Part shown: one piece after another, positions 9,101 to 33,842 of the stretch | Numbering within the stretch: the first letter of the stretch is position 1 | Layout of the letters: every line of letters starts with the position of its first letter | Origin: Frankiales bacterium | GTDB lineage: Bacteria > Actinomycetota > Actinomycetes > Mycobacteriales > SCTD01 | Direction of reading: 5' to 3' | Assembly (NCBI GenBank): GCA_025965475.1 | Contig: JAOPWV010000070.1 | Location: forward strand, 1 to 35,542 | Length of the DNA: 35,542 nt | Notes under the pieces: model-generated | Told to the model about the DNA's origin: nothing | The model's input: the letters and a program-made list of their open reading frames with translations, nothing else | The model's database searches: none | Program-made: the position numbers and the translations under genes

Positions 9101-9177
9101 AACCCGCTCTCGCCCCCTGGGCGGCCGCGGTGTCTGATCAGGACAGGTCTCCGCACGTCGAGGGAAGGAACCAACAG

Positions 9178-9954: not shown

Positions 9955-11396
9955 CGTCGACTGCGCTCCACACCGACGCGGCGGCGACCGACGAGGACGC
10001 CCGCCCGGTCAACCCGGCGACCCTCGAACCGCTCGGCCATGTTCCCGCCACCAGCGACGCGGAGCTGGACGAGCTGGCGCGCCGGGCTCAGGCAGCGCTC
10101 AAGGGGGGCTGGTCCACCGACTCCCGGCTGCGAGCCGAGGTCCTGCACGCCTGGGCCCAGTCGCTCACCGCGCACTCCGGCGAGCTGGTCGCCGCCCTGG
10201 TCGCGGAGACCGGCAAGCCCGTGACGGAGGCGCGCATCGAGGTGCGCGGTTCCGTCGACGCGCTGCTCTACAACAGCGGCCTGGCCCGCTACCTGGGCGG
10301 CCGGGCCGGCACGCTGCCGGACGGCAACGTCGCGCACCTGGTCCGTGAACCGGTCGGCGTGACGACGTTCATCGTGCCGTGGAACTGGCCGGCGCTCCTG
10401 CTGCTCCGCGACCTGGCCCCCGCCCTGGCCGCTGGTGTCACCGCGCTGGTCAAGCCGGCTCCCCAGACCACGCTCGTCACCGAGCGGGTGCTCGCGCTCG
10501 GCCGCGAAGCCGGGGTGCCCGCCGACGTCCTGCACCTCGTGGTGGGCGGAGCCCGCACGGGGCACGCGGCGATCAGCCACCCGGCAGTCCGCGCGGTCGC
10601 GTTCACGGGTTCCACGCACGTCGGCACGCAGATCATGCGTTCGGCGGCCGAGGGCATGAAGCGCCCGCTGCTGGAGCTGGGCGGCAAGGGTGCGTCGGTG
10701 GTCTTCGCGGATGCCGACCTCGACGCCGCGGTTGCTGCTGCCGTCGCCGCGGCGGTGATCACCGCCGGCCAGATGTGCATGGCATGCACCAGGGTGCTCG
10801 TCGACCGCCGGGTCTACGCCGAGGTGCTCGAGCGCATGGCGGCGGGCGTACGCGCACTGCGCGTCGGCGACCCGGTCGACGACGCGACGCAGGTCGGACC
10901 GCTGATCTCGCCGGCCGCGGGCGAGCGGGTGGCTGCGCAGCTGGCGGCCGCCGCCTCGCACGTGCGCATCGTCGCCGGGGGTCAGCGGATGCAGGTCGAC
11001 GGACTGGCGGGTTACTTCCTCAGCCCCACCGTCGTGACCGACCTCGCACCGGATTCCCCGCTGGTTCAGGAGGACCTGTTCGCCCCGGTCGTCACGGTGG
11101 AGGCCTTCGACGACGAGGCGCAGGCCGTACGGCTCGCGAACGCCACGCCGTACGGGCTTGCGGCCGGGGTCTGGACGTCCGACGTCGGTCGCGCCTGGCG
11201 GGTGGCGCGGGCCATCGAGGCCGGCACCGTCTGGGTGAACGGCTGGAACAAGTCCTACCCGGAGATGCCCAGCGGTGGCTACAAGTCCTCCGGCATGGGC
11301 CGCACCCGCGGTGTCGAGGGCATCGAGCAGTTCACCGATCTCAAGCACATCCACTTCAGCGTTCCGCCGGTGGCGGAGGAAGGGAGCCGGTCATGA
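9951..11396 (+). CDS. NAD(P)-dependent aldehyde dehydrogenase
   Basis: This 481-residue enzyme of the ALDH superfamily oxidises an aldehyde to its acid. Visible landmarks are the cofactor/substrate segment VPWNWPALLLL (from about 142), KPAPQT (168-173), the turn FTGSTHVG (218-225), general base Glu242 in LELGGKG, catalytic Cys276 in GQMCMACTR, and the late motif EDLFAPVVTVEAFDD. The C-terminus has MPSGGYKSSGMGR. GTG 9951 overlaps the SDR stop (GTGA), and its own end overlaps the UbiD start (ATGA). The context suggests that its product acid is the substrate of the downstream UbiD-type decarboxylase, as in degradation of benzoic- or vanillic-type acids, but the exact substrate is not readable. 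Confidence 0.92.
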   Translation: MTSTALHTDAAATDEDARPVNPATLEPLGHVPATSDAELDELARRAQAALKGGWSTDSRLRAEVLHAWAQSLTAHSGELVAALVAETGKPVTEARIEVRGSVDALLYNSGLARYLGGRAGTLPDGNVAHLVREPVGVTTFIVPWNWPALLLLRDLAPALAAGVTALVKPAPQTTLVTERVLALGREAGVPADVLHLVVGGARTGHAAISHPAVRAVAFTGSTHVGTQIMRSAAEGMKRPLLELGGKGASVVFADADLDAAVAAAVAAAVITAGQMCMACTRVLVDRRVYAEVLERMAAGVRALRVGDPVDDATQVGPLISPAAGERVAAQLAAAASHVRIVAGGQRMQVDGLAGYFLSPTVVTDLAPDSPLVQEDLFAPVVTVEAFDDEAQAVRLANATPYGLAAGVWTSDVGRAWRVARAIEAGTVWVNGWNKSYPEMPSGGYKSSGMGRTRGVEGIEQFTDLKHIHFSVPPVAEEGSRS

Positions 11397-12832
11397 CGAG
11401 CCCCCCGACGAGCCCGGTCTCGGACGCTGCCTTCGCCCGCAGTGAGGCCGCGTGGCCCATCACGCAGGACCTGCGGTCCTGGCTCACCCGCCTCGACGAC
11501 GAGGGCGAACTCGGCGTCGTACGGTCCCGCATCGACGCGGACCAGGATGTCGCGGCCGTGCTCGAGAAGACGGACGGCCGGCGCGCCGTCCTGTTCACGG
11601 ACGTCGCGGATGCGCAGTTCCCCCTCGTGGGCAACACCGTGCTCGGCCGCGACTCGCTCGCCCGGGCGATGGGCTGCACTCCGCAGGAGACGTCCGCCCG
11701 GTACGCCGCGGCGCTCAGCAATCCGCGCCCTTGCAAGGAGATCGCGGCGCAGGACGCGCCGGTGCTCGCGAACCGGATGGACGACGCCCGGCTGCTGTCG
11801 ATGTTGCCGCTCACGGTCCAGCACGAGCACGATGCCGGCCGCTACCTCACCTCCGCGCTGCTCGCCGTACGCGACCCGGTCAGCGGGACGATGAACCTGT
11901 CGATCAACCGCATGCTGGCGGTGGGCGAGCGCGAGCTGCGGGTGCTCGTGCTGCCCGGCCGCCTGCGCGGCGTGCTGGACCAGGCTGAGCTGGAGGGACG
12001 CGACCTCGACGTCGCGATCGTCATCGGCGTGGACCCGCTGCTGTTCATGGCGAGCCAGGCTCCGTCCGACCGCGAGCTGGACGACCTCGAGGTCGCGAGC
12101 GCGCTGCGCGCGGATGCGCTCCCCGTGACCCGTTGCCCGTCGATCGACGCGGTGGTCCCGGCGGGCGCGGAGTTCGTGCTCGAGGGCCGGTTCCGCGCCG
12201 GCGCCCGCGAGCCCGAGGGGCCGTTCGGCGAGTTCCCCCGCACCTACGGTCCCGGAGGTCCGTCCCCGGTCATCGACCTGCTGGCCGGCTGGCACCGCGA
12301 CGACCCGGTGTTCCAGACGGTGCTGTCCGGGGGCCGCGAGCACTTCCTCATCGGCGGCATCCCGCGGGAGGCCGCCCTGCTGCGTACGGTCCACACCGCC
12401 TACCGCTCCGTCGTCGCCGTACGCCTGCCCGAGGCGGGCTCCTGCCGGTTCAACGCGGTCGTCGCTCTGCGCGATCCTGGCCCGGGCGTCGCGGTGAACG
12501 TCATGACGGCGATCCTGTCGCTGAGCACGGTCGTGAAGTCCGTGGTCGTCGTCGACGACGACGTGGACGTGTACGACGACGAGCAGGTCACCTGGGCGGT
12601 CGCGACCCGGGTGCAGGCCGACCGGGACGTGCACATCGTGTCCGGCATGAAGGGCAGCAGCCTGGATCCGTCGGCGGCCGGTGGCCCGACCGCCAAGATG
12701 GGGATGGACGCGACGGTCCCCAAGGCCGAGCGTGGGCGGTACGCGCAGATGCGGGTGATGCCCACCGACGACGCGCGGATCGCCGGGTACCTCGCCGAAT
12801 CCGCCATCGGCGAGAGGGGAGCGGCCCGATGA
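11393..12832 (+). CDS. UbiD-family prenyl-FMN-dependent (de)carboxylase
   Basis: This is a 479-residue member of the UbiD family, reversible decarboxylases of aromatic, heteroaromatic or alpha,beta-unsaturated acids that use prenylated FMN. The catalytic triad is recognisable: Arg173 in SINRMLAVG, and Glu275 and Glu280 in EPEGPFGEFPRTYG. This is the same five-residue spacing as the two glutamates of fungal Fdc1. Other family blocks are QHEHDAGRYLTSALLAV (from about 143), IGVDPLLFMAS (211-221) and the C-terminal DPSAAGGPTAKMGMDAT. The next gene encodes UbiX, which makes the cofactor. Substrate candidates include hydroxybenzoates, vanillate and heteroaromatic carboxylates; no small VdcD-like third subunit is present. 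Confidence 0.93.
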   Translation: MTSPPTSPVSDAAFARSEAAWPITQDLRSWLTRLDDEGELGVVRSRIDADQDVAAVLEKTDGRRAVLFTDVADAQFPLVGNTVLGRDSLARAMGCTPQETSARYAAALSNPRPCKEIAAQDAPVLANRMDDARLLSMLPLTVQHEHDAGRYLTSALLAVRDPVSGTMNLSINRMLAVGERELRVLVLPGRLRGVLDQAELEGRDLDVAIVIGVDPLLFMASQAPSDRELDDLEVASALRADALPVTRCPSIDAVVPAGAEFVLEGRFRAGAREPEGPFGEFPRTYGPGGPSPVIDLLAGWHRDDPVFQTVLSGGREHFLIGGIPREAALLRTVHTAYRSVVAVRLPEAGSCRFNAVVALRDPGPGVAVNVMTAILSLSTVVKSVVVVDDDVDVYDDEQVTWAVATRVQADRDVHIVSGMKGSSLDPSAAGGPTAKMGMDATVPKAERGRYAQMRVMPTDDARIAGYLAESAIGERGAAR

Positions 12833-13440
12833 CCGGTCGCATCATCGTGGCGATCACCGGTGCCTCCGGGGCGCAGTACGGCATCGCGGCGCTGCTCGCC
12901 CTGCGGGAGCAGCCGGGCATCGAGACACACCTCGTGCTCACCCGCGCCGCCAGGGCGACCATCTCCGCCGAGGCCGACATGTCCGTCGAGCAGGTGCGTG
13001 ACCTGGCCGACGTGGTGCACAGCGACAACGACCTCGGCTCGGCGATCGCAAGCGGGTCCTTCCGTACCGACGGCATGCTGGTGGCGCCGTGCAGCGTCAA
13101 GACGCTGTCCGGCATCGCCAACTGCTACGACGACACGCTCGTGGTCCGGGCGGCCGATGTGGTGCTCAAGGAGCGCCGGCGTCTGGTGCTGCTCGTCAGG
13201 GAGACGCCGCTGCACGCGACGCACCTGCGGCTCATGACGGAGGTGACGACCGCCGGCGCGGTCGTGATGCCGCCGGTGCCGGCCTTCTACACCCGGCCCG
13301 CATCGGTCGACGACATCGTCACCCACACGGTCGGACGGGCTCTCGACCTGTTCGGGATCGACATCGCCGGATTGCGACGCTGGACGGGCGACCGGGGGCA
13401 CAGCCCGACGCCGACGCCGATCCGGGCGGTCGAGTCCTAA
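12829..13440 (+). CDS. ubiX: UbiX-family flavin prenyltransferase
   Basis: This 203-residue flavoprotein transfers a dimethylallyl group to FMN, making the prenyl-FMN cofactor needed by UbiD enzymes. The N-terminal FMN-binding loop ITGASGAQYG (residues 8-17) and the segments VAPCSVKTLSGIANCYDDTLVVRAADVVLKERRRLVLLVRETPLHATHLRLM and MPPVPAFYTRP are all typical. The ATG overlaps the ubiD-like stop by four bases and GAGAGGGGAG lies upstream. It ends the operon, seven bases before the convergent CYTH-CHAD gene. Being coupled to its own UbiD partner suggests a dedicated catabolic pair rather than quinone biosynthesis. Confidence 0.93.
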   Translation: MTGRIIVAITGASGAQYGIAALLALREQPGIETHLVLTRAARATISAEADMSVEQVRDLADVVHSDNDLGSAIASGSFRTDGMLVAPCSVKTLSGIANCYDDTLVVRAADVVLKERRRLVLLVRETPLHATHLRLMTEVTTAGAVVMPPVPAFYTRPASVDDIVTHTVGRALDLFGIDIAGLRRWTGDRGHSPTPTPIRAVES

Positions 13441-22330: not shown

Positions 22331-23029
22331 GTGGTCGATGCTCAAACCGCTTCGGTCTACGACCGCGCCGGCTTCGGGCGCCCTGTGCCGAGGGGGCAGC
22401 GCCCGGCGGTTCTCGTCGTCGACTTCACCTACGGGTTCACCGACCCGGCGTACCCCACGGGCTCCGACATGTCCCCGCAGGTGCTGGCCACGACCAGGCT
22501 GCTCGCGGTTGCCCGCAGCAAGGGCCTGCCGGTCATCTTCACGACGATCGCGTACGACGCGGGCCAGCTCCGCACGCTCACCTGGCTGCGCAAGGCGCCA
22601 GGGATGGCCGCCCTCGTCCTGGGCGGCCGGCTCGTCGAGGTGGATGATCGGCTGGACCGGCGGGAGGAGGAGACGGTGCTGGTGAAGACCGGCGCATCCG
22701 CCTTCTTCGGTACGCCGCTGTCCTCGCAGCTCGCCGCCGCGCAGGTCGACACCCTTGTCGTCACCGGAGCCACCACGAGCGGCTGCGTCCGGGCCAGCGT
22801 CGTCGACGCGGTGCAGAACGGCTACCCCACCCTCGTCCCCCGTGACTGCGTCGCCGACCGGGCCCGGGCCCCGCACGACGCAAGCCTGTTCGACATGAAC
22901 GAGAAGTACGCGGACGTCATCGCCCTCGACGAGGTTCTCTCCTACCTGCAGTCCGTACCGGCTCGTCCGAACGATCCCCAGTTCTCGCCCCACTCCACGA
23001 TCACGTCCCAGGCGGAGGCCCAGGCATGA
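22331..23029 (+). CDS. nicF: isochorismatase-family amidohydrolase, probable maleamate amidohydrolase (NicF-like)
   Basis: This is a 232-residue cysteine hydrolase of the isochorismatase fold. The catalytic triad is visible: Asp31 (VVDFTYGF), Lys119 (LVKTGASAF) and Cys152 (TTSGCVRAS), with the cis-peptide region before the cysteine (VTGATTSGC). In this operon, next to NicD-, NicE- and NicX-like genes, the expected reaction is maleamate + water to maleate + ammonia. N-carbamoylsarcosine amidase-like activity on another amide is an alternative. It starts at GTG 22331, with GCAGGGG upstream. It is the first gene of the operon and overlaps the next by four bases. Confidence 0.85.
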   Translation: MVDAQTASVYDRAGFGRPVPRGQRPAVLVVDFTYGFTDPAYPTGSDMSPQVLATTRLLAVARSKGLPVIFTTIAYDAGQLRTLTWLRKAPGMAALVLGGRLVEVDDRLDRREEETVLVKTGASAFFGTPLSSQLAAAQVDTLVVTGATTSGCVRASVVDAVQNGYPTLVPRDCVADRARAPHDASLFDMNEKYADVIALDEVLSYLQSVPARPNDPQFSPHSTITSQAEAQA

Positions 23030-24903
23030 CCCTGACCAGTTCGAACGACCCGGCGGACTCGTCCGCAGCGGCAGCCGGGCGGTTCATCAGCCCTTTCGCC
23101 GTGGAGACACCCGCGGGCGCTGAAGGCTGGGAGAGCATGTACCCCTACTACGCGCTGCTCAGCGAGGAGCGGCGCGAGCTGGACGACGGCAAGTTCTGGT
23201 TCTTCGACGGGATGCACAACCCGGAGCCGCTGTACCCGTTCGACACCATCATGACGGAGAACTGGTGGGTCGCCGCCAGCCAGATGTCGACCAGGGTCTG
23301 GCCGGTGCCCCCGGCCGGCGGTATCGACCACCGCATCATCAACGGCTACCTGTACATCAGCCCGAACGCCGTGACCGACCCGGTGGAGATCGGCCGCCGC
23401 GCCGAGTTGTTCGGCGTGCGGGCAGGGCACTACTTCCAGAACTGGGACGAGATCTACGACCAGTGGGTCACGAAGGCCACCGACTGCATCGACCGCCTCA
23501 AGGCGATCCAGTTCGCCCCGCTGCCGGACACCGAGCCGGAGAGCAGCGTCTTCGAGCACCGCGGCCTGTACTCCAGCTACCAGCTGCTGACGACGTACGG
23601 CGAACTGCTGAACAACCTGTTCGAGATGGGCTCGTACCACTTCGAGATGCTCAACCTCGGGTACGGCGCCTACCTCACGTTCCGTGAGTTCTGCCAGGCC
23701 GCGTTCCCGGGCATCAGCGACCAGACCATCGCGAGCATGGTGTCGGGCATCGACATCCTGCTGTTCCGGCCGGACGACGAGGTGCGCGGCCTCGCGAAGC
23801 TCGCGGTCGAGTTGGACCTGGCCGAGCTCATCCTCCCGGAGAACACTCCCGAGGCGACCCTGACGGCCATCGCCGGGCACGGCAACGGCGCCAAGTGGCT
23901 CGCCGCCTTCGAGGTGGCGAAGGACCCGTGGTTCTGGTTCTCGACCGGCGCCGGCTACACGCACTCGGACCGCGCCTGGATCGACGACCTGCGCCTGCCC
24001 TTCACCGCGATGCGCGGCTACATCCAGGGCCTGCAGAACGGCGAGGACATCCGCCGGCCGCTCGACGCGATTCTCGCCGAGCGCGTGCGGGTGACCGACG
24101 AGTACCGCTCGTACCTGCCCACCGAGGACGACCGGGACTCCTTCGACGGCCTGGTCGAGCTGGCCCGCAAGGTGTTCCCGTTCGTGGAGAACCACAACTT
24201 CTACATCGAGCACTGGCACCACTCGGTGTTCTGGTCGAAGGTGCGCGAACTCGGCGACGTGTTCGTCGCGCACAACTTCCTCGACGACCGCGAGGACATC
24301 TTCTACCTGCACCGCAACGAGATCTACTCCGCGCTGTACGACCTCAACATCGGCTGGGCGACCGGCACCGAGGCGCGCGGCGAGACCTACTGGCGTCCCG
24401 AGGTGGAGCGCCGCAGGCGCATCCGGGACGTCCTCAAGCAGTGGGCACCGCAGCCGGCGCTCGGTGTGCCGCCGGAGTTCATCACCGAGCCGCTGACCGT
24501 CATGCTCTGGGGCATCACCCAGGAGACCGTGCAGGAATGGCTCGGGGCCGGCGGAGAGGACGGCGGCGACGGTGAACTGCGGGGCGTGGCCGCCTCTGCC
24601 GGTAAGGCCACCGGCCGCGCCCGTGTCATCACCGACCCGGAGCAGCTGCACGAGGTGGAGGACGGCGACATCCTCGTCTGCCGCATCACGGCGCCGAGCT
24701 GGGCGCCGGTGTTCTCGCGCCTGTCGGCCGCCGTCTCCGACGTCGGCGGCATCATGGCCCACACCGCCATCGTCTGCCGTGAGTACGGCCTGCCCGCCGT
24801 CGTGGGCACCGGTTTCGCCACCGTCACCATCCGCACCGGCCAGCTCATCGAGGTCGACGGCAACCGCGGCACCGTCCGGATCCTCGAGGAGAACGCGCAG
24901 TGA
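23026..24903 (+). CDS. PEP-utilising phosphohistidine protein, phenylphosphate-synthase subunit-1-like
   Basis: This is a 625-residue protein. Its C-terminal ~90 residues are the PEP-utilisers mobile domain: GDILVCRITAPSWAPVF, then GGIMAHTAIVCREYGLPAVVGTG with phosphorylatable His579, then GQLIEVDGNRGTV. The N-terminal 530 residues, tryptophan- and tyrosine-rich, are unlike the PEP/pyruvate barrel, and no such barrel is present. Size (about 70 kDa) and layout match the larger subunit of phenylphosphate synthase, which carries a phosphohistidine near residue 569 and phosphorylates phenol; the ATP-grasp half is the next gene. I infer that it accepts phosphate from the partner and transfers it to the ring hydroxyl of a hydroxypyridine. 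A PEP-utilising protein is reported as needed for 3-hydroxypyridine dehydrogenase activity in Ensifer adhaerens HP1 (recalled). Confidence 0.85.
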   Translation: MTLTSSNDPADSSAAAAGRFISPFAVETPAGAEGWESMYPYYALLSEERRELDDGKFWFFDGMHNPEPLYPFDTIMTENWWVAASQMSTRVWPVPPAGGIDHRIINGYLYISPNAVTDPVEIGRRAELFGVRAGHYFQNWDEIYDQWVTKATDCIDRLKAIQFAPLPDTEPESSVFEHRGLYSSYQLLTTYGELLNNLFEMGSYHFEMLNLGYGAYLTFREFCQAAFPGISDQTIASMVSGIDILLFRPDDEVRGLAKLAVELDLAELILPENTPEATLTAIAGHGNGAKWLAAFEVAKDPWFWFSTGAGYTHSDRAWIDDLRLPFTAMRGYIQGLQNGEDIRRPLDAILAERVRVTDEYRSYLPTEDDRDSFDGLVELARKVFPFVENHNFYIEHWHHSVFWSKVRELGDVFVAHNFLDDREDIFYLHRNEIYSALYDLNIGWATGTEARGETYWRPEVERRRRIRDVLKQWAPQPALGVPPEFITEPLTVMLWGITQETVQEWLGAGGEDGGDGELRGVAASAGKATGRARVITDPEQLHEVEDGDILVCRITAPSWAPVFSRLSAAVSDVGGIMAHTAIVCREYGLPAVVGTGFATVTIRTGQLIEVDGNRGTVRILEENAQ

Positions 24904-25997
24904 ACTCCCCCTCTCCCTACGTCCTGTGGCTCGACGACCCGAGCGCGCCCGAGAGCAAGCTGCTCGGCGGCAAGTTCGGCAGCCTCGCGCAGATGACCGA
25001 GGCGGGCTTCGCCGTACCGCCTGGCTTCGGTGTCACGACGACGGCGTACCGCCACTTCCTGAAGGCGGCCGGCCTGGCCGACCGGGCCCGTGAGGTGCGG
25101 GCCCGCGCCGTGACCGCGGACCTCGCCGAGGTGCAGGCGCTCAGCGCCGAGTTCACCACCGCCGTCGGGGCCGCGCCGCTGCCGGCCGACCTGGAGACGG
25201 CCGTCCGCGAGGCGTACGCGGAACTCGAGAGCCGTACCGGACAGGCCGGGCTCCCGGTCGCCGTCCGCTCGAGCGGGGAGTCCGAGGACCTGGCCGGCGC
25301 CAGCTTTGCGGGCCAGTACGACACCTTCCTGTGGATCAAGGGTGCGGAGGAGGTGCTGCAGCACGTGCGCCGCTGCTGGGCCGGCATGTTCGGCGCGGCG
25401 GTGCTGACCTACCGGCCTGAGGGCGACGCGTCGATCACGACGGCCGACCACGGCATCTGCGTCGGCATCCAGCAGATGGTCGAGGCCCGCGCCGCCGGCG
25501 TCATGTTCACGCTCGACCCCGTCACCGGTGACCGTTCCAAGGTCGTCATCGAGGGCTGCTGGGGTCTCGGTGAGGGCGTCGTCAGCGGCGGCATCACCCC
25601 GAGCCGCTACGTCGTGGACAAGGTGACCTTCGAGATCCTGCGCCGCGAGGTCGCCGTGCAGGAGACGCAGTTCCGCTTCGACCCGGCGATCTCGGCGGTC
25701 GGTCTCGTCCCGGTCGAGGCGGACCGCAGGGAGATGACCTGCCTGGAGGACGTCCACATCGACGCGCTGGCCCGCCTGGCCAAGCGCATCGAGCAGCACC
25801 GGGGCGCGCCGCAGGACATCGAATGGGCAGTCAGCGAATCCGGCGACGTGCATGTGCTCCAGGTGCGGCCGGAGACGGTGTGGAGCCGGCGTGCGGCCAC
25901 CCAGGTCATCGGGGAGCGCAAGTCCGCCGTCGACCACGTCCTGGCCCGGTTCGCCGGTGTCGGGCTGACGCAGCGCGCGGGCAGTCCTCAGTCGTGA
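24900..25997 (+). CDS. PEP synthase/pyruvate phosphate dikinase N-terminal (ATP-grasp) protein
   Basis: This 365-residue protein consists only of the ATP-binding domain of PEP synthase/PPDK. Motifs in order: GGKFGSLAQMTEAGFAVPPGF (start of domain, 23-43), AVRSSGESEDLAGASFAGQYDTFL (121-144), QQMVEARAAGVMFTLDPVTGD (191-211), EGCWGLGEGVVSG (218-230), QDIEWA and LQVRPETVWS. It lacks the phosphohistidine and PEP domains, which are supplied or replaced by the preceding gene. The split matches the 40-kDa subunit of phenylphosphate synthase, which uses ATP to load phosphate on the partner histidine. GTG 24900 overlaps the upstream stop; GAGGAG lies eight bases before it. The 24-kDa CBS-domain third subunit of that enzyme is not encoded here. 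Confidence 0.88.
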   Translation: MNSPSPYVLWLDDPSAPESKLLGGKFGSLAQMTEAGFAVPPGFGVTTTAYRHFLKAAGLADRAREVRARAVTADLAEVQALSAEFTTAVGAAPLPADLETAVREAYAELESRTGQAGLPVAVRSSGESEDLAGASFAGQYDTFLWIKGAEEVLQHVRRCWAGMFGAAVLTYRPEGDASITTADHGICVGIQQMVEARAAGVMFTLDPVTGDRSKVVIEGCWGLGEGVVSGGITPSRYVVDKVTFEILRREVAVQETQFRFDPAISAVGLVPVEADRREMTCLEDVHIDALARLAKRIEQHRGAPQDIEWAVSESGDVHVLQVRPETVWSRRAATQVIGERKSAVDHVLARFAGVGLTQRAGSPQS

Positions 25998-26872
25998 AGG
26001 CGGCAGCGTTCGACTACCACCGGCCCGCGAGCGTCTCGGAGGCGGTGAGCTACCTCGACCAGTACGGCGGCACCGCCCGTGTCCTGGCGGGTGGGCAGAG
26101 CCTGGTGCCCATGCTCAACATGCGGCTGTGGCGGCCGGCCGCACTCATCGACATCAACGCGATCGAGGAGCTCGGCCAGGTGCGCCTGGACGGGGACAGC
26201 ACCGTTCTCGGTGCCCTGGTGCGGTACGCCCAGATCGAGCGTGGACCTGTCGTCGCCGAACGGCTGCCCCTGCTCGCCTACATCGTCCGCCACATCGGTG
26301 ACCGCCAGGTCCGCAACCGGGGCACCATCGGCGGCAGCCTCGTGCAGGGCGACCCGACGGGGGAGATGCCGCTGGCCTGCCTGGTCCTGGACGCGGTGGT
26401 GCACGTGACGGGTCCGGCGGGGACGCGTGAGATTCCCCTGGCCGACCTGTACGAGGGGTCCTACGCGACGGCTCTCGACCTCGAGGAGCTGCTGACCGAG
26501 ATCATCTTCCCGCGCAGCCCGCAGTATTTCGCGTTCGCCGAGTGCTGCCGGCGGCACAACGACTTCGCGGTCGTCAGCGCCGTCGCCACCGGCGACCGGG
26601 GACCGGACGGCCGCTGGTGCGACGTGCGCCTCGCGCTCGGCGGCGTGGCCGACACCCCCGTGCGCGCCGAACGGGCGGCTGAACTTCTGTCCGGCACCGA
26701 GCTGTCCGACGCCGACATCCGCGACGCGGCGGAGGCGGCCATGCAGGTCGTCGACCCGCCCAGCGACGTGCGTGCGTCGGCGGAGTACCGGCGCCACCTG
26801 GTTCCGGTGTACGTGGAGAAGGTGCTGACCGGCCTGCGGGCCGCAGCAACCGACGAGAGGGAACAGCGGTGA
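25994..26872 (+). CDS. molybdenum hydroxylase FAD-binding (medium) subunit
   Basis: This is the 292-residue FAD subunit of a xanthine-dehydrogenase-family hydroxylase (CoxM/NdhF type). The FAD pyrophosphate loops LAGGQSLVPMLNMR (31-44) and VRNRGTIGGSLVQGDPTGEMP (106-126) are intact, and a C-terminal CO-dehydrogenase flavoprotein domain follows (about 180-285). It would take electrons from the 2Fe-2S subunit (30946-31455). The GTG overlaps the stop of the ATP-grasp gene (GTGA) with no strong RBS of its own, so it is probably translated by coupling. It is separated from its small and large partner subunits by 4.1 kb containing the SRPBCC, HD and ring-cleavage genes. Confidence 0.93.
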   Translation: MKAAAFDYHRPASVSEAVSYLDQYGGTARVLAGGQSLVPMLNMRLWRPAALIDINAIEELGQVRLDGDSTVLGALVRYAQIERGPVVAERLPLLAYIVRHIGDRQVRNRGTIGGSLVQGDPTGEMPLACLVLDAVVHVTGPAGTREIPLADLYEGSYATALDLEELLTEIIFPRSPQYFAFAECCRRHNDFAVVSAVATGDRGPDGRWCDVRLALGGVADTPVRAERAAELLSGTELSDADIRDAAEAAMQVVDPPSDVRASAEYRRHLVPVYVEKVLTGLRAAATDEREQR

Positions 26873-27543
26873 AGCTCCACGAGGAGTTCGACGTCGCCAA
26901 GCCGGTGGCGGCGATCTGGACGTTCTTCGAGCAGCCGGAGAAGGTCGCGCAGTGCGTGCCCGGCGTCGAACAGCTCACGGTGGTCGACGCGGACAACGTC
27001 AACGTCCGGCTGACCCAGAGCATCGGCCCGATGACGGCCACCTTCGACGCGAAGGTGAAGATCGTCGAGCGGGTGTCCGAGGAACTGATGCGGTTCACCG
27101 CAACCGGGCGCAGCGTCCGGGGGGCCATGGGCAACGTCCGGGCCTCGAACACGGTGCACCTGACCGCGGTGGACGGCGGGACCCGGGTGCGGGTCGAGGG
27201 TGACGTCACCCTGGCGGGTGCCCTCGGCAGCGTCGGGCAGAAGGTCGTCGCGAGCCAGGCCAGCAAGGTGACGGCGCAGTTCGCCCGCAACCTCGAGACG
27301 GTGCTCAACGGCGGTCAGGTCGAGGACGCCTCGCGTGAGCGAGCGGGAACCAAGCGTGCCCCGTCGGCGCCTGCGTCAGCGGCGCCGGCCGCTCCGTCCA
27401 CGACGGCCCCGGCACAGTCCCTGCCGCCGGTGTCCGAGCTCCCTCCCCTCGACCCGTGGCCGCGGGCTGCGGCAGTGCTGAGCGCGGTCTCGGTCGTCCT
27501 CAGCCTCCTGGCCCTGCTGCGCTCCCGCCGGGCCGCACGATGA
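26869..27543 (+). CDS. SRPBCC (CoxG-like) protein with C-terminal membrane anchor
   Basis: This is a 224-residue protein. Residues 1-150 form a CoxG-type SRPBCC domain (MKLHEEFDVAKPVAAIWTFFEQPEKVAQCVPGVEQL, then ASQASKVTAQFARNLETVL). A proline/alanine-rich linker (about 158-195) and one transmembrane helix (about 200-217, AAVLSAVSVVLSLLALL) ending in RSRRAAR follow. CoxG recruits CO dehydrogenase to the membrane. In some N-heterocycle hydroxylases an SRPBCC domain is fused to a subunit, but here it is separate, as described for the four-component 3-hydroxypyridine dehydrogenase of Ensifer. The likely role is tethering the Mo hydroxylase to the respiratory chain. GTG 26869 overlaps the FAD-subunit stop. 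Confidence 0.9.
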   Translation: MKLHEEFDVAKPVAAIWTFFEQPEKVAQCVPGVEQLTVVDADNVNVRLTQSIGPMTATFDAKVKIVERVSEELMRFTATGRSVRGAMGNVRASNTVHLTAVDGGTRVRVEGDVTLAGALGSVGQKVVASQASKVTAQFARNLETVLNGGQVEDASRERAGTKRAPSAPASAAPAAPSTTAPAQSLPPVSELPPLDPWPRAAAVLSAVSVVLSLLALLRSRRAAR

Positions 27544-28169
27544 CGGTGGCTCTGCCGTGGACGGCGCCCGAGGTGGCCCTCGGGACCGACCTCGAGCGTG
27601 CCGCCGCGCAGTGGATCGAGCCGTACAACCAGCAGCAGCACCTGATGCGGACGCGTGACTGGCTCGTGCACCTGTCGCCGGGCGCCAACGTCGAGATGCG
27701 CCTCGCGGCGATGACCCACGACATCGAGCGGATGTTCCCGGGCGGTCCGGTGCTGGACCTGGCCTCGCGGGACTGGGACGACCCGTTCTACCTGTTCGCG
27801 CACGGCACGCGCTCCGCGGAGATCGTCGCCGACTGGATGGGCGAGCTGGAGCCGGCGTGCGTGGCCGCCGACCGCAAGGAGGTACGCCGGCTCGTCGCCC
27901 TGCACGAGGTGGGCGGGCTGCGCGGCGCGGACGAGATCCAGGCAGCCGACTCGCTCTCCTTCCTCGAGAGCCTGGCGGATGTCGCGCGCGACTGGGTCCT
28001 GTCCGGCGCTTGCTCGCGCGAGAAGGCCGCTGCCAAGCTGTACTACTCGGTCGACCGGATCCGCATACCCGCTGCCGAAGAACCCGCGGCGCAACTTCTC
28101 GAGTGGGCGCTCGACCGCCTGCCCGCCGCTGCCCCCGCCGCCGACCGCGACCGGGTGGCGGCGCCATGA
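27540..28169 (+). CDS. HD-domain metal-dependent phosphohydrolase-like protein
   Basis: This 209-residue protein is not a pyridine enzyme that I recognise. Its residue pattern fits an HD domain: His34 (HLMRTR) or His44, then His60-Asp61 in AAMTHDIERMF, His88 in AHGTRSAEIVADWM, His122 in VALHEVGG, and Asp137 in IQAADSLSFLESL. This H...HD...H...H...D order is that of HD phosphohydrolases, including two-metal types. The ATG overlaps the SRPBCC stop (ATGA), in the middle of the operon. Given the phosphotransferase pair two genes upstream, I infer that it removes phosphate from a phosphorylated dihydroxypyridine or corrects a dead-end phosphoester. A nucleotide-clearing or regulatory role is the alternative. 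Confidence 0.75.
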   Translation: MTVALPWTAPEVALGTDLERAAAQWIEPYNQQQHLMRTRDWLVHLSPGANVEMRLAAMTHDIERMFPGGPVLDLASRDWDDPFYLFAHGTRSAEIVADWMGELEPACVAADRKEVRRLVALHEVGGLRGADEIQAADSLSFLESLADVARDWVLSGACSREKAAAKLYYSVDRIRIPAAEEPAAQLLEWALDRLPAAAPAADRDRVAAP

Positions 28170-28197: not shown

Positions 28198-28947
28198 ATG
28201 AACCGACGTATCGGCCTTATCGTGCCGAGCTCCAACACCACGATGGAGACGGAGATCCCGGAGCTCCTGCGGCGTTACGCCGAGGAGCACGCCGACTTCA
28301 CGGCGACCTTCCATGCCAGCCGCGCTCGGCTGCACACCGTCGACGCCGAGTCGCTGGCCAAGATGGTCGACGACGGCGAGCGCTGCGCGGCCGAAGTCGG
28401 TGACGCGCAGGTCGACGTGGTGGGCTATGCGTGCCTCGTCGCGGTCATGGCGCAGGGCAACGGCGCGCACGTCGGCATCGAGGAGCGGCTGCAGAAGGTC
28501 CTGTCCGAGAGCCGGTCGGCCGAGGCGAAGATGACGAGCAGTGCCGGTGCCCTGGTGCGCACCCTGCTCGAGCTCGGCCTGCGCCGGGTCGCCATCGTCG
28601 CGCCGTACATGCCGCAGCTGACGAGCCTCGTGGTCGGCTACCTGGAGGATGCCGGCATCAGTGTCGCCGACAGCGTCAGCCTGTCGGTCGCCGACAACTG
28701 CGAGGTCGGCCGGCTCGACCCGGAGAACCTGCTCGACCACGTCAAGCGCCTCGACACCAGCGAGGTCGACGGGGTCGTCCTGTCGGCCTGCGTGCAGATG
28801 CCGTCGCTGCCCGCCGTGCAGCGGGCCCAGGACACCCTGGGTCTGCCCGTGGTCACGGCCGCCACGGCGACCACCCGCGAGATCCTGCTCGCGCTGGGCC
28901 TCGAGCCGCGCGTCCGCGACGCCGGCGCTGCTCTGGCGGGTACGTGA
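28198..28947 (+). CDS. nicE: maleate cis-trans isomerase (Asp/Glu racemase superfamily), NicE/MaiA-like
   Basis: This is a 249-residue enzyme converting maleate to fumarate, the last step of the pathway. The maleate-isomerase N-terminus RIGLIVPSSNTTMETEIP (4-21) is diagnostic. The two catalytic cysteines are Cys79 (VVGYACLVAVM) and Cys198 (VVLSACVQMPSL), close to positions 76-82 and 194-200 in characterised family members. The ATG at 28198 follows AGGGA ten bases upstream; GTG 28189 is in frame but too close to that RBS. It lies 28 bp after the HD gene and overlaps the next gene by four bases. Arylmalonate decarboxylase-type activity is a family alternative made unlikely by the neighbours. 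Confidence 0.9.
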   Translation: MNRRIGLIVPSSNTTMETEIPELLRRYAEEHADFTATFHASRARLHTVDAESLAKMVDDGERCAAEVGDAQVDVVGYACLVAVMAQGNGAHVGIEERLQKVLSESRSAEAKMTSSAGALVRTLLELGLRRVAIVAPYMPQLTSLVVGYLEDAGISVADSVSLSVADNCEVGRLDPENLLDHVKRLDTSEVDGVVLSACVQMPSLPAVQRAQDTLGLPVVTAATATTREILLALGLEPRVRDAGAALAGT

Positions 28948-29807
28948 GCATCGCGCTCAGCGGTCGCGACGTGACCGTGCAGGCCAACGGCCTGCGCCAC
29001 CACGTCCTCACCTACGGCCAGGCAGGCGGTCCTGACCTCCTGGTGCTGCCGGGCATCACGAGCCCGGCGGCAACGGCCGACTTCCTTGGTGTGCTCTTCG
29101 CGGAGATGGGTTACCGGGTCACCGTGCCGGACCTGCGCGGGCGCGGCGGGACGGACCGGCCGCCGACCGGCAGCTACCGGCTGACCGACTACGCCGCCGA
29201 CGTGGCCGCGCTGGTGGCCGCGCTCGAGCTGCGCACCCCCACCGTCCTCGGGCACTCGCTGGGGGCTCGCATCGCCGCGGCATACGCCGTTCTGCACGCG
29301 CCGGACGACCACGGACAGCTGATCCTCGTCGACCCGCCCACCTCGGGCCCGGGCCGCGGTCCGTACCCGACCTCGCGCGACGCGTTCCTCGAGCAGCTGC
29401 AGCAGGCCCAGCGGGGGACCCACGCCGACGAGGTGCGCCGGTTCTATCCGACGTGGCCCGAGCGGGAACTGCAGATCCGGGCCGACGTACTCGCGACCTG
29501 CGACGAGACAGCCGTGCTCGAAACGCACGCGGGCTTCGAGTCGGAGGACTTCTTCCCGTACTGGCGCAAGCTGACCGGACCCGTCGTCCTGGTCCGCGGT
29601 GGCGACAGTCCTGTCGTCCCGCCGGCTGCTGCCGAGGACCTGCACCGCGAGCAGCCGGGATTCGACATCGTCACGGTTCCCGGCGCGGGCCACATGGTCC
29701 CGTGGGACAACCTGCCCGGGTTTCTCGACGCCGTACGCCCGTACCTGCGGTCCCCCGGGGGGCCGCTCCCGTTTTCGCCGACCTCCACCCCCGACGGCCA
29801 GGAGTAG
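28944..29807 (+). CDS. nicD: alpha/beta hydrolase, probable N-formylmaleamate deformylase (NicD-like)
   Basis: This is a 287-residue alpha/beta hydrolase: oxyanion loop LPGITSP (35-41), VPDLRGRGGTDRP (61-73), nucleophile elbow LGHSLGAR with Ser105, Asp130 in ILVDPP and His250 in GAGHMVPWDN. The acid 25 residues after the serine is the arrangement reported for P. putida NicD (Ser101, Asp125, His245, recalled), rather than the usual late Asp. The reaction would be N-formylmaleamate + water to maleamate + formate. GTG 28944 overlaps the maleate isomerase stop. The next gene encodes the dioxygenase that makes its substrate, three bases downstream. Confidence 0.87.
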   Translation: MSIALSGRDVTVQANGLRHHVLTYGQAGGPDLLVLPGITSPAATADFLGVLFAEMGYRVTVPDLRGRGGTDRPPTGSYRLTDYAADVAALVAALELRTPTVLGHSLGARIAAAYAVLHAPDDHGQLILVDPPTSGPGRGPYPTSRDAFLEQLQQAQRGTHADEVRRFYPTWPERELQIRADVLATCDETAVLETHAGFESEDFFPYWRKLTGPVVLVRGGDSPVVPPAAAEDLHREQPGFDIVTVPGAGHMVPWDNLPGFLDAVRPYLRSPGGPLPFSPTSTPDGQE

Positions 29808-29810
29808 TTC

Positions 29811-30845
29811 ATGGACCAGAGCCAGCTCAACGAGATGTGCCGCCGCCAGCTCGAGCTCAGCGCCGTGCACGAGGGCGAGAGTGTGGTCGTGCTGTCGCAG
29901 GGCCACGACCGCGCGGACTACGCGGACGCGTTCCTCTACGCCGCCCGCAGTCTGGGCGCGCAGGCGTACCACATGCGCCTGTCCACGCCGCAGTCCTCGA
30001 CCGGTGCGTGGGCGGTCGGCGAGTCCGAGCTGGCCAGCAACCCGTACGCCGTCGAGGCGCTCAAGCAGGCCGACATGCTGGTGGACCTCGCCTTTTTGCT
30101 GTTCAGCAAGGAGCAGTTCGCGATCCAGGGCGCCGGCACCCGGATCCTCACGGCGGTCGAGCCTGCCCCGCTGCTGGCCAAGCTGTTCCCGACGCGCGAG
30201 CTGCGCGACCGCGTCGAGGTCGGGGGCGAGCTGCTGGCCAGGGCCCAGAACATGCGGATCACCAGCCCGCACGGCACCGACGTCACCTACCGGCTCGGCG
30301 TGTACCCGACGATCACCGAGTACGGCTACACCGACCAGCCGGGCCGCTGGGACCACTGGCCGGCGGCATTCGTGTTCACGGGTGCCGCCGACGACGGCGT
30401 GGACGGCCAGATCGTCATCGCGCCGGGCGACGTCCTGCTGCCGTTCAACACCTACGTGAACACGCCGATCACCCTCACGATCGAGCAGGGTTTCATCACC
30501 GACATCAAGGGTGACCTCGACGCCGACCTGCTGCACTCGTACATCAAGAGTTTCGACGACCCGCGCGGCTACGGCATGTCGCACGTGGGCTGGGGTCTGG
30601 ACCACCGGGCCAACTGGCACGGGCTCACGCAGTTCCCGGGCGGCATGGGCATGGAGCTGCGCTCCTTCTACGGAAACGTCATGTTCTCCATCGGGCCGAA
30701 CAACGAGCTCGGTGGACCCAACGACACGCCCTGCCACTTCGACATCCCGATGCGCGGCGCGAGCCTGTTCCTCGACGACGAGCCGATCGTCGTGGACGGC
30801 GACCTCGCCGTGAAGGAGATGCAGCGGACCGACCGCCGCAGCTGA
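29811..30845 (+). CDS. nicX: 2,5-dihydroxypyridine 5,6-dioxygenase (NicX-like)
   Basis: This 344-residue protein belongs to the M29-aminopeptidase-like family that includes NicX, the Fe(II) ring-opening dioxygenase making N-formylmaleamate. The putative iron ligands are His258 (GMSHVGWG), His309 and Asp311 (PCHFD). Their spacing (51 and 2) is close to the His265/His318/Asp320 set reported for P. putida NicX (recalled). Upstream landmarks are VTYRLGVYPTITEYG and the PGG loop (FPGGMGMELRSFYGN). AGGAG lies six bases before the ATG. A leucyl-aminopeptidase annotation is the common misnomer. Together with NicD-, NicE- and NicF-like neighbours it fixes 2,5-dihydroxypyridine as the central intermediate. 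Confidence 0.9.
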   Translation: MDQSQLNEMCRRQLELSAVHEGESVVVLSQGHDRADYADAFLYAARSLGAQAYHMRLSTPQSSTGAWAVGESELASNPYAVEALKQADMLVDLAFLLFSKEQFAIQGAGTRILTAVEPAPLLAKLFPTRELRDRVEVGGELLARAQNMRITSPHGTDVTYRLGVYPTITEYGYTDQPGRWDHWPAAFVFTGAADDGVDGQIVIAPGDVLLPFNTYVNTPITLTIEQGFITDIKGDLDADLLHSYIKSFDDPRGYGMSHVGWGLDHRANWHGLTQFPGGMGMELRSFYGNVMFSIGPNNELGGPNDTPCHFDIPMRGASLFLDDEPIVVDGDLAVKEMQRTDRRS

Positions 30846-30945
30846 CGGCGTCCCGTACTCCCTCGACCGACGACTCCCTGGTGGACATCGCTGTGAACGT
30901 GACCGAACGCTGTGCCGACGCGCCCAAGGGTGGAGGTGTGTGCCG

Positions 30946-31455
30946 ATGAGCGCCCTCGAGCCCGAGGTGGACATCACCGTGACCGTCAACGGTGAGATCG
31001 TGACCGCCCGCGCACCTGCCCGGCTCCATGCGGCGGACTTCCTGCGTCAGCGGCTCGGCCTGACCGGGACGCACATCGGCTGCGAGCAGGGTGTCTGCGG
31101 CATGTGCACCGTCCTCGTCGACGGCGAGGCGGTGAAGTCCTGCCTGATGCTGGCCGTACAGCTCGACGGCAGGCAGGTGCAGACGGTGGAGTCGCTGGCC
31201 GAGGACGACCGCCTCAACCCGCTTCAGCAGGCGTTCAAGGACGAGCACGCGCTGCAGTGCGGGTTCTGCACCCCCGGTTTCCTCATGACGGCGACGGCGC
31301 TCGCGCGGCGGGGGGAGCGGCTGTCCCGCAACGAGATCCGCGAGGAGATCGCCGGCGTGCTGTGCCGGTGCACCGGCTACGACAACATCGTCAAGGCGAT
31401 CGAGAAGCACCTCGAGGAGACCGCCGACGCGGATGCGGCGCGGGTGGCCCGATGA
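30946..31455 (+). CDS. molybdenum hydroxylase 2Fe-2S (small) subunit
   Basis: This is a 169-residue CoxS/XdhC-type iron-sulfur subunit with two clusters. The plant-ferredoxin-type site is Cys46, Cys51, Cys54 (CEQGVCGMC) and Cys66. The helical site is Cys105, Cys108 (CGFCTPG), Cys140 and Cys142 (CRCTGY). It passes electrons from the Mo centre to the FAD subunit. The ATG at 30946 is nine bases after GGAGG; a GTG at 30940 is only three bases from it. The 100 bp before it show no clear promoter or terminator, so it is probably part of the same transcript. It overlaps the large subunit gene by four bases. Confidence 0.95.
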   Translation: MSALEPEVDITVTVNGEIVTARAPARLHAADFLRQRLGLTGTHIGCEQGVCGMCTVLVDGEAVKSCLMLAVQLDGRQVQTVESLAEDDRLNPLQQAFKDEHALQCGFCTPGFLMTATALARRGERLSRNEIREEIAGVLCRCTGYDNIVKAIEKHLEETADADAARVAR

Positions 31456-33842
31456 CCCACATCCTGGAGCGGCCGACCGGTCCGCTCGGCGGGTCCCACG
31501 ACGACCGCACCGACGCGATAGGCAGCAACGTCCCGCGCAAGGAGGACGACCGCCTGCTGCGCGGCGACGGGCGTTTCACCGACGACGTCGAGCCGCCGCA
31601 CGTCCTGCACATGGCGGTCGGGCGCTGCCCGTTCCCGCATGCGCAGATCCTCGGCATCGACACGTCCGCGGCGCTGGAGGTCGAGGGGGTCAAGCACATC
31701 CTCATCGGCTCCGACGTTCGTGCGGCCACCGAGCCGCTGACGGTCCTGCGGCCGGTGCCGGGCGCCCCCGATCTGCACTACTACGCGCTGGCCCAGGACG
31801 TCGCGACGTACGAGGGACAGCCCGTCGTCAGCGTGGTGGCGACGAGCCGGCACATCGCCGAGGACGCGCTCGAGCTGATCGACATCGACTACGAGCCGCT
31901 GCCCCACGTGGTGGACGTGATCGCCGCGCTGGAGCCGGACGCCCCCGTCATCCACCCGCACGTGCTCGGGTCCAACCTGCTCGTCTCGAACAGGGACGAG
32001 TCCGGTGACCCGGAGGCCCGGATGGCCGAGGCGGACGTCGTCGTCGCTGGCCGGTTCCGCATCAACCGCGTGACCGGGCTGCCCATGGAGACCCGCGGCA
32101 TCGTCGTCGAGTGGCGCCCGGGCGCGCGCGAGCTCACCGTGCACACGTCGACGCAGGTCCCGCACCTGGTGCGCAAGCAGCTCGCCGAGTCGCTGCGGCT
32201 GGACGAGGGCGAGATCCGCGCGGTGGCCTCCGACGTCGGCGGCGGCTTCGGGCTCAAGCTCGGTATCTACCCCGAGGACGTGCTGGCCTGCCTGCATGCG
32301 ATGGCCCTGCGCCGGCCGGTCAAGTGGACCGAGGACCGGTCCGAGCACTTCCGCGCCACGACGCACGCCCGCGAGGCCGTGCACGACTTCCGGATCGGCG
32401 CGACGGCCGACGGTCGGATGACGGCGATGACGAACGTCTACGCCACCGACCTCGGCGGGTGGAACTCCTCGTTCGGCTCGGCCCAGCTGTCCAGCGTCGT
32501 CTTCAACGGGCCGTACAAGATCGAGGACGGCTCGGTCGAGCGCCGGGTGATCGTGACCAACAAGACGCCGATCGGGGCGTACCGCGGGTACGGCCAGCCG
32601 GAAGTCAACTTCGCGTACGAGCGGCTGGTCGACCAGCTGGCCCGCCGGCTCGACATGGACCCGCTCGAGCTGCGCGCCATGAACATGGTGCGCCCGACCG
32701 ACATGCCGTGGCGCAACCCCAGCGGCGCCGTCTACGACAGCGGTGACTACGAGCTGTGCCTGCGGATGGCGGGCGACGCGGTCGGCTACGACGAACACCG
32801 CAAGGCCGTCCGCGGACCCCGTCCGGACGGGCGGTACGTCGGCATCGGCCTGTCGTCCTTCGTCGAGCGGACCGGCTACGCGAGCTCGCGATTCCTGGCC
32901 CGCCGTGGGTCGCAGTTCGGCGCGCACGAGAGCGTCACGTTGCGGGCCAACCGGTCCGGCGGCGTCGACCTGTACACCGGCGTCTCGACCATGGGACAGA
33001 GCAGCGAGACGGCGTTCGCCCAGGTGACGAGCAGCGTGCTCGGCATCGCGTACGACAAGGTGAGCGTGCACGCCGGCGACACGGCCGCGTCGCCGTTGAA
33101 CACCGGTGCCTTCGCGTCCCGCACGATGATCGCGGCGGCGGGGGCGCTCAAGGACGCGGCGACGCAGCTGCGCGACAAGACACTGCGCCTGGCGGCCTGG
33201 CGCCTCGAGACCGAGGTCGGCACGCTGGAGGTCGCCGGCGACCGGGTGCAGCACCGGTCCGACCCGGACCGGTACGTCCTGCTGTCCGAGGTCTTCTCGA
33301 TGGCGATCCTCGGACAGGGGCTGCCGCCGGACGAGGAGCCGGGCCTGGAGGCGACGGCGCACTTCGAGCCGCCGGACGCGGCGTACTCGTTCGGCACGGC
33401 CGCGGCAGTCGTCTCCGTCGATCCGAACACCGGCGACTTCGACGTCGAGCGCTTCGTCCTGGTCCACGACTGCGGCACCGTCGTGAACCCGAAGGTGGTC
33501 GACGGGCAGGTCCGTGGCGCGCTGGTCCAGGGGCTCGGCGCGGCGCTGTCCGAGGAGCTGCGGTACGACGCCGACAGCGGGCAGCTGGTCAACGGCACGA
33601 TGATGGACTACTTCGCGCCGAGCGCCGCCGACGTGCCTCCCATCGAGCTGCTGCACACCGAGGTGCCGTCACCGGTCACCACGTTCGGGGTCCGCGGGGT
33701 CGGCGAGGTGGGCACGATCCCGCCGGGCGCCGCGGTGGCCAACGCGATCTGCGACGCGCTTGCGGACTTCGGCGTGGAGCTGTCGACGCTGCCCATCACG
33801 CCCGAAAGCGTCTGGAAGGCGCTTCGGGAGCAGCGCGCCTGA
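31452..33842 (+). CDS. molybdenum hydroxylase molybdopterin (large) subunit
   Basis: This is a 796-residue catalytic subunit of the xanthine dehydrogenase/CO dehydrogenase family, binding the molybdopterin cytosine dinucleotide cofactor. Motifs: GSNVPRKEDDRLLRGDGRFTDDV at the N-terminus, DVGGGFGLKLGIYPEDV, TPIGAYRGYGQPE, STMGQSSETAFAQV, and GVRGVGEVGTIPPGAAVANAI with catalytic Glu752. The CO-dehydrogenase active-site loop with selenyl-cysteine ligand (VAYRCSFR) is replaced by GAYRGYGQ, so this is a hydroxylase, not a CO dehydrogenase. The inferred reaction is water-derived hydroxylation at the ring carbon next to nitrogen, giving 2,5-dihydroxypyridine or its phosphoester. No cofactor-maturation gene (XdhC type) lies in the window. 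Confidence 0.95.
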   Translation: MTHILERPTGPLGGSHDDRTDAIGSNVPRKEDDRLLRGDGRFTDDVEPPHVLHMAVGRCPFPHAQILGIDTSAALEVEGVKHILIGSDVRAATEPLTVLRPVPGAPDLHYYALAQDVATYEGQPVVSVVATSRHIAEDALELIDIDYEPLPHVVDVIAALEPDAPVIHPHVLGSNLLVSNRDESGDPEARMAEADVVVAGRFRINRVTGLPMETRGIVVEWRPGARELTVHTSTQVPHLVRKQLAESLRLDEGEIRAVASDVGGGFGLKLGIYPEDVLACLHAMALRRPVKWTEDRSEHFRATTHAREAVHDFRIGATADGRMTAMTNVYATDLGGWNSSFGSAQLSSVVFNGPYKIEDGSVERRVIVTNKTPIGAYRGYGQPEVNFAYERLVDQLARRLDMDPLELRAMNMVRPTDMPWRNPSGAVYDSGDYELCLRMAGDAVGYDEHRKAVRGPRPDGRYVGIGLSSFVERTGYASSRFLARRGSQFGAHESVTLRANRSGGVDLYTGVSTMGQSSETAFAQVTSSVLGIAYDKVSVHAGDTAASPLNTGAFASRTMIAAAGALKDAATQLRDKTLRLAAWRLETEVGTLEVAGDRVQHRSDPDRYVLLSEVFSMAILGQGLPPDEEPGLEATAHFEPPDAAYSFGTAAAVVSVDPNTGDFDVERFVLVHDCGTVVNPKVVDGQVRGALVQGLGAALSEELRYDADSGQLVNGTMMDYFAPSAADVPPIELLHTEVPSPVTTFGVRGVGEVGTIPPGAAVANAICDALADFGVELSTLPITPESVWKALREQRA

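Follow-up and report, generated by a model that had tools for sequence, protein, structure and literature searches.

A probable HD-domain phosphatase in a predicted phosphorylation-dependent hydroxypyridine pathway of a Frankiales bacterium

The window analysed here, the whole 35,542-nucleotide stretch of contig JAOPWV010000070.1 from a Frankiales bacterium, contains a catabolic operon in which a 209-residue HD-domain protein is encoded at 27540-28169 on the forward strand. We consider this protein to be probably a dimetal phosphomonoesterase serving the third step of a phosphorylate-hydroxylate-dephosphorylate sequence, and infer its activity, position in the sequence, substrate and metal. 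A phosphatase had already been proposed in an earlier note on this DNA, and the proposal gains support from the HD site and fold, the linkage of the gene to a phosphoenolpyruvate (PEP) synthase-like kinase pair, the identity of that pair as a predicted dikinase with its catalytic His, and the precedent of the Cre pathway.

The HD gene and its predicted metal site

The G+C fractions at codon positions 1, 2 and 3 of the open reading frame (ORF) are 0.76, 0.50 and 0.91, and comparison with four close orthologues gives a ratio of non-synonymous to synonymous substitution rates (dN/dS) of 0.37-0.47; on both grounds the ORF is regarded as a real gene under constraint. It occurs as a single copy in its genome. 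The earlier note held that ATGA overlaps lock the gene into the operon. This is true of the upstream SRPBCC gene, but the maleate isomerase gene downstream is separated from it by a 28-bp spacer.

The H...HD...H...H...D pattern of HD phosphohydrolases that had been noticed in the product is borne out, with all six ligands in place (H34, H60, D61, H88, H122 and D137). Alignment with 55 relatives from Actinomycetota, Thermomicrobia, Proteobacteria, candidate phyla and archaea showed that H60, D61, H88, H122 and D137 are invariant and that H34 is kept in 54, a degree of conservation which argues that the pattern did not arise by chance. Besides the ligands, the close subfamily has invariant E63, R64, P67, Y84, R91, E123, GG125-126, QAADS 134-138 and R173.

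The AlphaFold2 model is an all-helical HD fold predicted with high confidence (predicted local distance difference test, pLDDT, 93.8; predicted template modelling score, pTM, 0.90), and the structural check suggested in the earlier note thus returned an intact six-ligand site on the modelled fold. Matches found by VIA-align include 2pq7 (Z 13.9, root-mean-square deviation (rmsd) 4.1, 155 aligned), YpgQ (Z 12.9, rmsd 3.5, 164 aligned) and small alarmone hydrolases. The first Foldseek match is the YqeK-type protein 2o08, with weak E-values, and the cyanamide hydratase Ddi2 is also among the structural matches. A profile of the HD family retrieves 2pq7 from the PDB with an E-value of 1e-3. As judged from the model, the fold neighbours of the protein are HD hydrolases.

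Family assignment by sequence was less direct. Scans with the single protein gave no significant Pfam or NCBIfam match; its DUF4202 (PF13875) score of 13.3 bits lies below the Pfam gathering cut-off of 35.1 bits, and the cut-off for HD (PF01966) is likewise not reached. Among the 55 relatives, 49 match DUF4202 and 29 match HD. A PDB sequence search with the window protein found nothing significant, and weak amine oxidase matches in that search, which leave part of the HD site uncovered, were dropped as chance similarities.

Association with the kinase genes

The HD-family alignment was scanned over 84,980 genomes and 80 loci were kept, comprising a close subfamily of 42 loci (L015-L056) and a distant group B of 38. 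Genes of the kinase pair lie in the same locus as the HD gene in 38 of the 42 close-subfamily loci, and most loci of this subfamily also hold the CoxM-, CoxS- and CoxL-type genes (CoxMSL) of a molybdenum hydroxylase. In the four loci without the pair the contigs end near the HD gene, and kinase homologues are found elsewhere in each genome. Two of these four are from Acidobacteria and their kinase homologues are merely 28-30% identical, so here the HD genes may have a different context. Clear kinase genes accompany about two of the 38 group B loci.

Two kinds of cluster contain the subfamily: a pyridine kind, and a Thermomicrobium kind without the 2,5-dihydroxypyridine dioxygenase gene nicX, which has genes for fumarylacetoacetate hydrolase, a cyclase and an antibiotic-biosynthesis-monooxygenase (ABM)-like protein. 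The HD gene adjoins the ATP-grasp kinase subunit in Thermomicrobium-type loci. Members of this kind are L008 (on the plasmid of T. roseum), L035, L037, L043, L046, L050, L053 and L204-L206. Their conserved content is the dikinase pair, the HD gene, CoxMSL and fumarylacetoacetate hydrolase-like, cyclase-family, ABM-family, Tm-1/UPF0261 and PEP hydrolase-like genes, with no pyridine genes; the T. roseum cluster also has a branched-chain-type ABC transporter. Pseudonocardia kunmingensis has two separate clusters of HD, kinase and molybdenum hydroxylase genes (L022 and L175, the latter likewise carrying the HD gene). The NicX-like enzyme of L022 is just 35% identical, which suggests a different pyridine substrate for that cluster.

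Searches seeded with the kinase subunits covered 197 genomes of the window's class and 396 genomes of its phylum. Every pyridine-type kinase cluster they found (L141, L142, L009 and L152/L010) has the HD gene. Of the remaining kinase loci, neither the nine from the class search nor those examined from the phylum search carry it. Cre, Hpe, Pps and unassigned kinase loci, both from these searches and in the kinase tree, are all without this HD gene. HD-bearing loci form two well-separated clades in the tree, with the HD-free Cre, Pps, Hpe and unassigned kinases between them, suggesting that the coupling of HD protein and kinase exists in two separate kinase lineages.

Some individual loci have unusual kinase arrangements. 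L009, L038 and L152 encode two full-length PEP-utilising kinase subunits, all with the catalytic His, and one ATP-grasp subunit; possibly two acceptors share one ATP-binding partner. In L106, on the T. roseum plasmid, a second kinase pair without an HD gene lies near CoxMSL, with a biotin carboxylase gene between them on the other strand. L142 has the kinase pair and the HD gene, but its 27.8 kb contig showed no molybdenum hydroxylase gene; its NicX homologue (5087-6108) appears as two matches in different frames, the result of a frameshift or a sequencing error.

Clusters without the kinase served as controls. Homologues of NicX were found in 202 plasmid records (60-80% identity in 137), and the HD protein is found on only one plasmid of the collection, that of T. 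roseum, inside its kinase cluster. Neither kinase nor HD gene is present in the ordinary nicotinate-type cluster L240 or in the actinobacterial cluster L241, which has CoxMSL, an SRPBCC gene and a NicX of 77% identity. From these kinase-free controls it follows that the HD gene tracks the kinase rather than the lower pathway or the molybdenum hydroxylase as such. The pattern of co-occurrence that the earlier note proposed to look for is therefore borne out: the close subfamily almost always has the PEP-like pair in the same locus, and 2,5-dihydroxypyridine clusters without the pair have no HD gene. Neither of the two outcomes that the note named as refuting its proposal was obtained.

The same controls bear on the idea that the HD protein is another metal-dependent hydrolase or a hydratase of the lower pathway, acting for example on a ring-cleavage product. 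HD folds can host a hydratase, as Ddi2 among the structural matches illustrates, but the lower pathway is complete without the HD protein, NicX clusters lacking the kinase also lack the HD gene, and kinase clusters unrelated to pyridines carry it. We regard such a role as very unlikely.

Operon content and proposed pathway

The genes of the operon, all on the forward strand, are as follows.

22331-23029 (+), isochorismatase-fold hydrolase (Pfam Isochorismatase), probable maleamate amidohydrolase, the specific role being suggested by the pathway
23026-24903 (+), PEP-utilising-type phenolic dikinase subunit (HpeH/CreH/PpsA type) with GGIMAH and catalytic His579, predicted from family scans and alignment (PMC12167813)
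24900-25997 (+), ATP-grasp (PPDK_N) dikinase subunit (HpeI/CreI/PpsB type), predicted from Pfam and NCBIfam scans
25994-26872 (+), flavin adenine dinucleotide (FAD) subunit of molybdenum hydroxylase (CoxM type), from Pfam and NCBIfam scans
26869-27543 (+), SRPBCC/CoxG-type protein (Pfam), either a separate subunit of the molybdenum hydroxylase or a protein for its maturation; the gene overlaps the HD gene by ATGA
27540-28169 (+), HD-domain protein, proposed pyridyl-phosphate phosphatase, from motif, model and relatives
28198-28947 (+), maleate cis-trans isomerase (PDB 4fq7, E 4.9e-61)
28944-29807 (+), N-formylmaleamate deformylase, NicD type (PDB 4l0c, E 1.2e-50)
29811-30845 (+), 2,5-dihydroxypyridine 5,6-dioxygenase, NicX (PDB 7cn3, E 1.4e-89)
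30940-31455 (+), [2Fe-2S] subunit of molybdenum hydroxylase (CoxS type), from Pfam and NCBIfam scans
31452-33842 (+), molybdopterin subunit of molybdenum hydroxylase (CoxL type), matched to annotated molybdopterin-binding subunits of related loci

On sequence grounds the PEP-like pair is assigned as a two-subunit phenolic dikinase of the HpeHI/CreHI/PpsAB type. The swivel domain of its PEP-utilising subunit has the GGIMAH motif with catalytic His579, which is kept in all 72 aligned relatives, and Met577 at the position of the regulatory Thr. A Met two residues before the catalytic His, replacing this Thr, has been reported for HpeH and related phenol kinases (PMC12167813). NicX, the deformylase, the amidase and the maleate isomerase are together predicted to convert 2,5-dihydroxypyridine all the way to fumarate, and the operon is probably a 3-hydroxypyridine cluster, the upstream substrate being deduced from this context.

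The gene content resembles that of the hpd (3-hydroxypyridine) cluster of Ensifer adhaerens HP1, a resemblance used as a lead and not as a test. That cluster is said to hold a PEP-utilising protein and a PPDK-like protein, and its HpdA dehydrogenase is reportedly a molybdenum hydroxylase with a separate SRPBCC subunit that forms 2,5-dihydroxypyridine. We know of no role of an HD protein in the hpd cluster. With regard to the earlier note's statement that no known pyridine pathway enzyme has this fold, the literature was searched for HD proteins in the breakdown of hydroxypyridines, and none turned up.

In the proposed sequence the dikinase pair (23026-25997) would first phosphorylate a ring hydroxyl, most likely that of 3-hydroxypyridine, with conversion of adenosine triphosphate (ATP) to adenosine monophosphate (AMP) and inorganic phosphate. 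The molybdenum hydroxylase (CoxM/S/L with SRPBCC) would then hydroxylate the phosphorylated ring at C6, and the HD protein would hydrolyse the phosphate ester by means of a dimetal-activated water to give 2,5-dihydroxypyridine, from which NicX, NicD, the amidase and maleate isomerase would lead to fumarate. Phosphorylation would probably serve to remove electron donation by the ring oxygen and to provide the hydroxylase with an anionic handle.

Elsewhere in the window (9130-13440), genes for a short-chain dehydrogenase/reductase (SDR), an aldehyde dehydrogenase and apparent UbiD- and UbiX-type proteins (decarboxylase and flavin prenyltransferase) look, by inspection, like a second aromatic catabolic group.

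Evidence against a dedicated phosphatase and alternative roles

Several findings weigh against this interpretation. According to a review, HD phosphohydrolases generally carry an Arg at the third position ahead of the first His (PMC8177086). The HD family lacks it: the window protein has Q31 at this position, and most relatives have D, Q or N. Since the CreD-like proteins have Asn there instead of Arg, its absence is not decisive. The dinuclear H...HD...H...H...D motif is common to HD oxygenases too. Some group B relatives from Thermodesulfobacteriota lie directly behind CoxL with no kinase found. Finally, while the closest kinases of the Thermomicrobium kind (at least 79% identity) are accompanied by the HD gene, 17 Chloroflexota loci with a kinase subunit 46-56% identical to the Thermomicrobium type are without it, and most of these hold CoxMSL, which means that kinase plus hydroxylase does not always need the HD gene. 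Of all the findings, this one counts most against a universal requirement for it.

The shared ligand set (PMC8177086) would suit a mixed-valent diiron HD oxygenase of the MIOX, PhnZ or TmpB kind acting on the ring or on a phosphorylated intermediate, but we think this highly improbable. The top structural neighbours are HD hydrolases, and the YxxE loop that precedes the first His in PhnZ and TmpB occurs in 11 of the 55 relatives but not in the window protein. Distant relatives are found in lineages known as anaerobes (for example ANME-1/Methanophagales and Desulfobacterales), and oxygenation is already covered by the molybdenum hydroxylase and NicX. MIOX, PhnZ and TmpB are not among the 50 structural matches listed for the model, a result which does not exclude them.

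The main rival to a phosphatase is a protein that assists or matures the molybdenum hydroxylase, or that acts on its cofactor or nucleotide pool. The HD gene overlaps or adjoins SRPBCC/CoxG, CoxL or CoxM genes in the window and in many relatives, and in group B the distant HD relatives of L057, L060, L061, L063 and L064 (Thermodesulfobacteriota and others) are encoded directly downstream of CoxL with no kinase found. Against this, kinase-free molybdenum hydroxylase clusters such as L241 have no HD gene, and in Thermomicrobium-type loci the gene's neighbour is the ATP-grasp subunit. An accessory role appears unlikely to us, though it deserves to be kept in mind. In L057 the HD relative is flanked by UPF0261 upstream and a haloacid dehalogenase (HAD) hydrolase downstream.

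The HD-free clusters of kinase and CoxMSL bear on a further alternative, in which the HD protein is a phosphatase that the pathway does not strictly require. It would clear phosphorylated phenols or pyridines that are stray or lead to dead ends, or would dephosphorylate the substrate so that less phosphate is trapped (a housekeeping or proofreading role). Such clusters imply that the step can be dispensable or performed by general phosphatases, and phenolic dikinases are reported to accept several phenols (PMC12167813). Retention of the HD gene in every pyridine-type kinase cluster from the kinase-seeded searches and the strict conservation of its active site speak for a dedicated step instead, and we hold the non-obligate role to be quite unlikely. 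A few genes of the HD-free Chloroflexota clusters were inspected by eye, and none could be recognised as a replacement phosphatase. Of these loci (L207-L223), several share accessory genes of the Thermomicrobium kind, a spare ORF of L208 resembles a GntR-type regulator, and L215 and L216 have a P-loop (HPr kinase-like) protein.

Wider meaning and comparison with known systems

The distribution of the HD subfamily raises the idea that it marks a general module, in which a dikinase phosphorylates an aromatic hydroxyl, a molybdenum enzyme hydroxylates the ring and the HD protein removes the phosphate. The substrates would be hydroxypyridines in Actinomycetota and Proteobacteria and other compounds in Thermomicrobia, Solirubrobacterales and Dormibacterota; the chances for and against this extension seem to us evenly balanced. 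Phosphorylation-initiated aromatic catabolism is already known, as is an HD phosphohydrolase in such a pathway (CreD). What is apparently new, as far as the literature found goes, is the HD subfamily described here, together with its connection to a molybdenum hydroxylase and an N-heterocycle pathway and its recurrence in a second, unassigned type of cluster.

If the proposed phosphatase role is correct, it would explain why a PEP synthase-like pair is needed in the 3-hydroxypyridine pathway and would complete the reaction sequence with a named enzyme. Phosphorylation-activated degradation, so far described for phenol, cresols and hydroxyacetophenones, would extend to N-heterocycles and molybdenum hydroxylases, and part of the uncharacterised HD/DUF4202-like family would gain a function. 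The HD gene would also be a marker for finding further clusters with other substrates.

The nearest known system is the 4-cresol (Cre) pathway of Corynebacterium glutamicum, where creHI encodes the kinase (PMC12167813). A table in PMC7764795 gives creD as a phosphohydrolase and creHI as 4-methylbenzyl phosphate synthase. The CreD-like sequences compared here come from Rhodococcus and related loci and not from C. glutamicum itself; the Rhodococcus plasmid loci encode a cytochrome P450, the kinase pair, an SDR, a ferredoxin, a reductase, the HD protein and an aldehyde dehydrogenase in cre-cluster order. BLAST found no similarity between the window HD family and the CreD-like proteins. Profile-profile comparison of the HD family with the CreD-like set gave a probability of 94% and an E-value of 1e-7 over 174 columns, with all six ligands aligned, which suggests a distant relationship. 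Scored singly against the HD family, four of six CreD-like sequences reach 61-72; the remaining two score 20 and 3.5. On the same scale, generic HD proteins encoded in this genome score 0-29, and unrelated proteins score 0. CreD shares with the window protein the HD class and the six-ligand pattern, and its gene accompanies those for an oxidase and for a dikinase pair homologous to that of the window (PMC7764795). The Cre oxidase, however, is a P450 where the window has a molybdenum hydroxylase, and the class of substrate differs.

In the hydroxyphenylethanone (Hpe) pathway a homologous kinase (HpeHI) is likewise followed by a dedicated phosphatase, HpeD, which acts after the middle step (PMC9618137, PMC12167813). 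HpeD has the NagD-like HAD fold and the middle step is catalysed by a biotin-dependent carboxylase, so that different folds evidently fill the phosphatase role. YqeK-type dinuclear HD phosphatases (diadenosine tetraphosphate (Ap4A) hydrolase, 2o08) have the same H...HD...H...H...D dinuclear site (PMC8177086) but show no notable sequence similarity to the window protein and act on a nucleotide substrate. The DUF4202 and HD families of Pfam share its fold and are matched by many of its relatives, whereas the close subfamily has a signature of its own (E63, P67, Y84 and QAADS).
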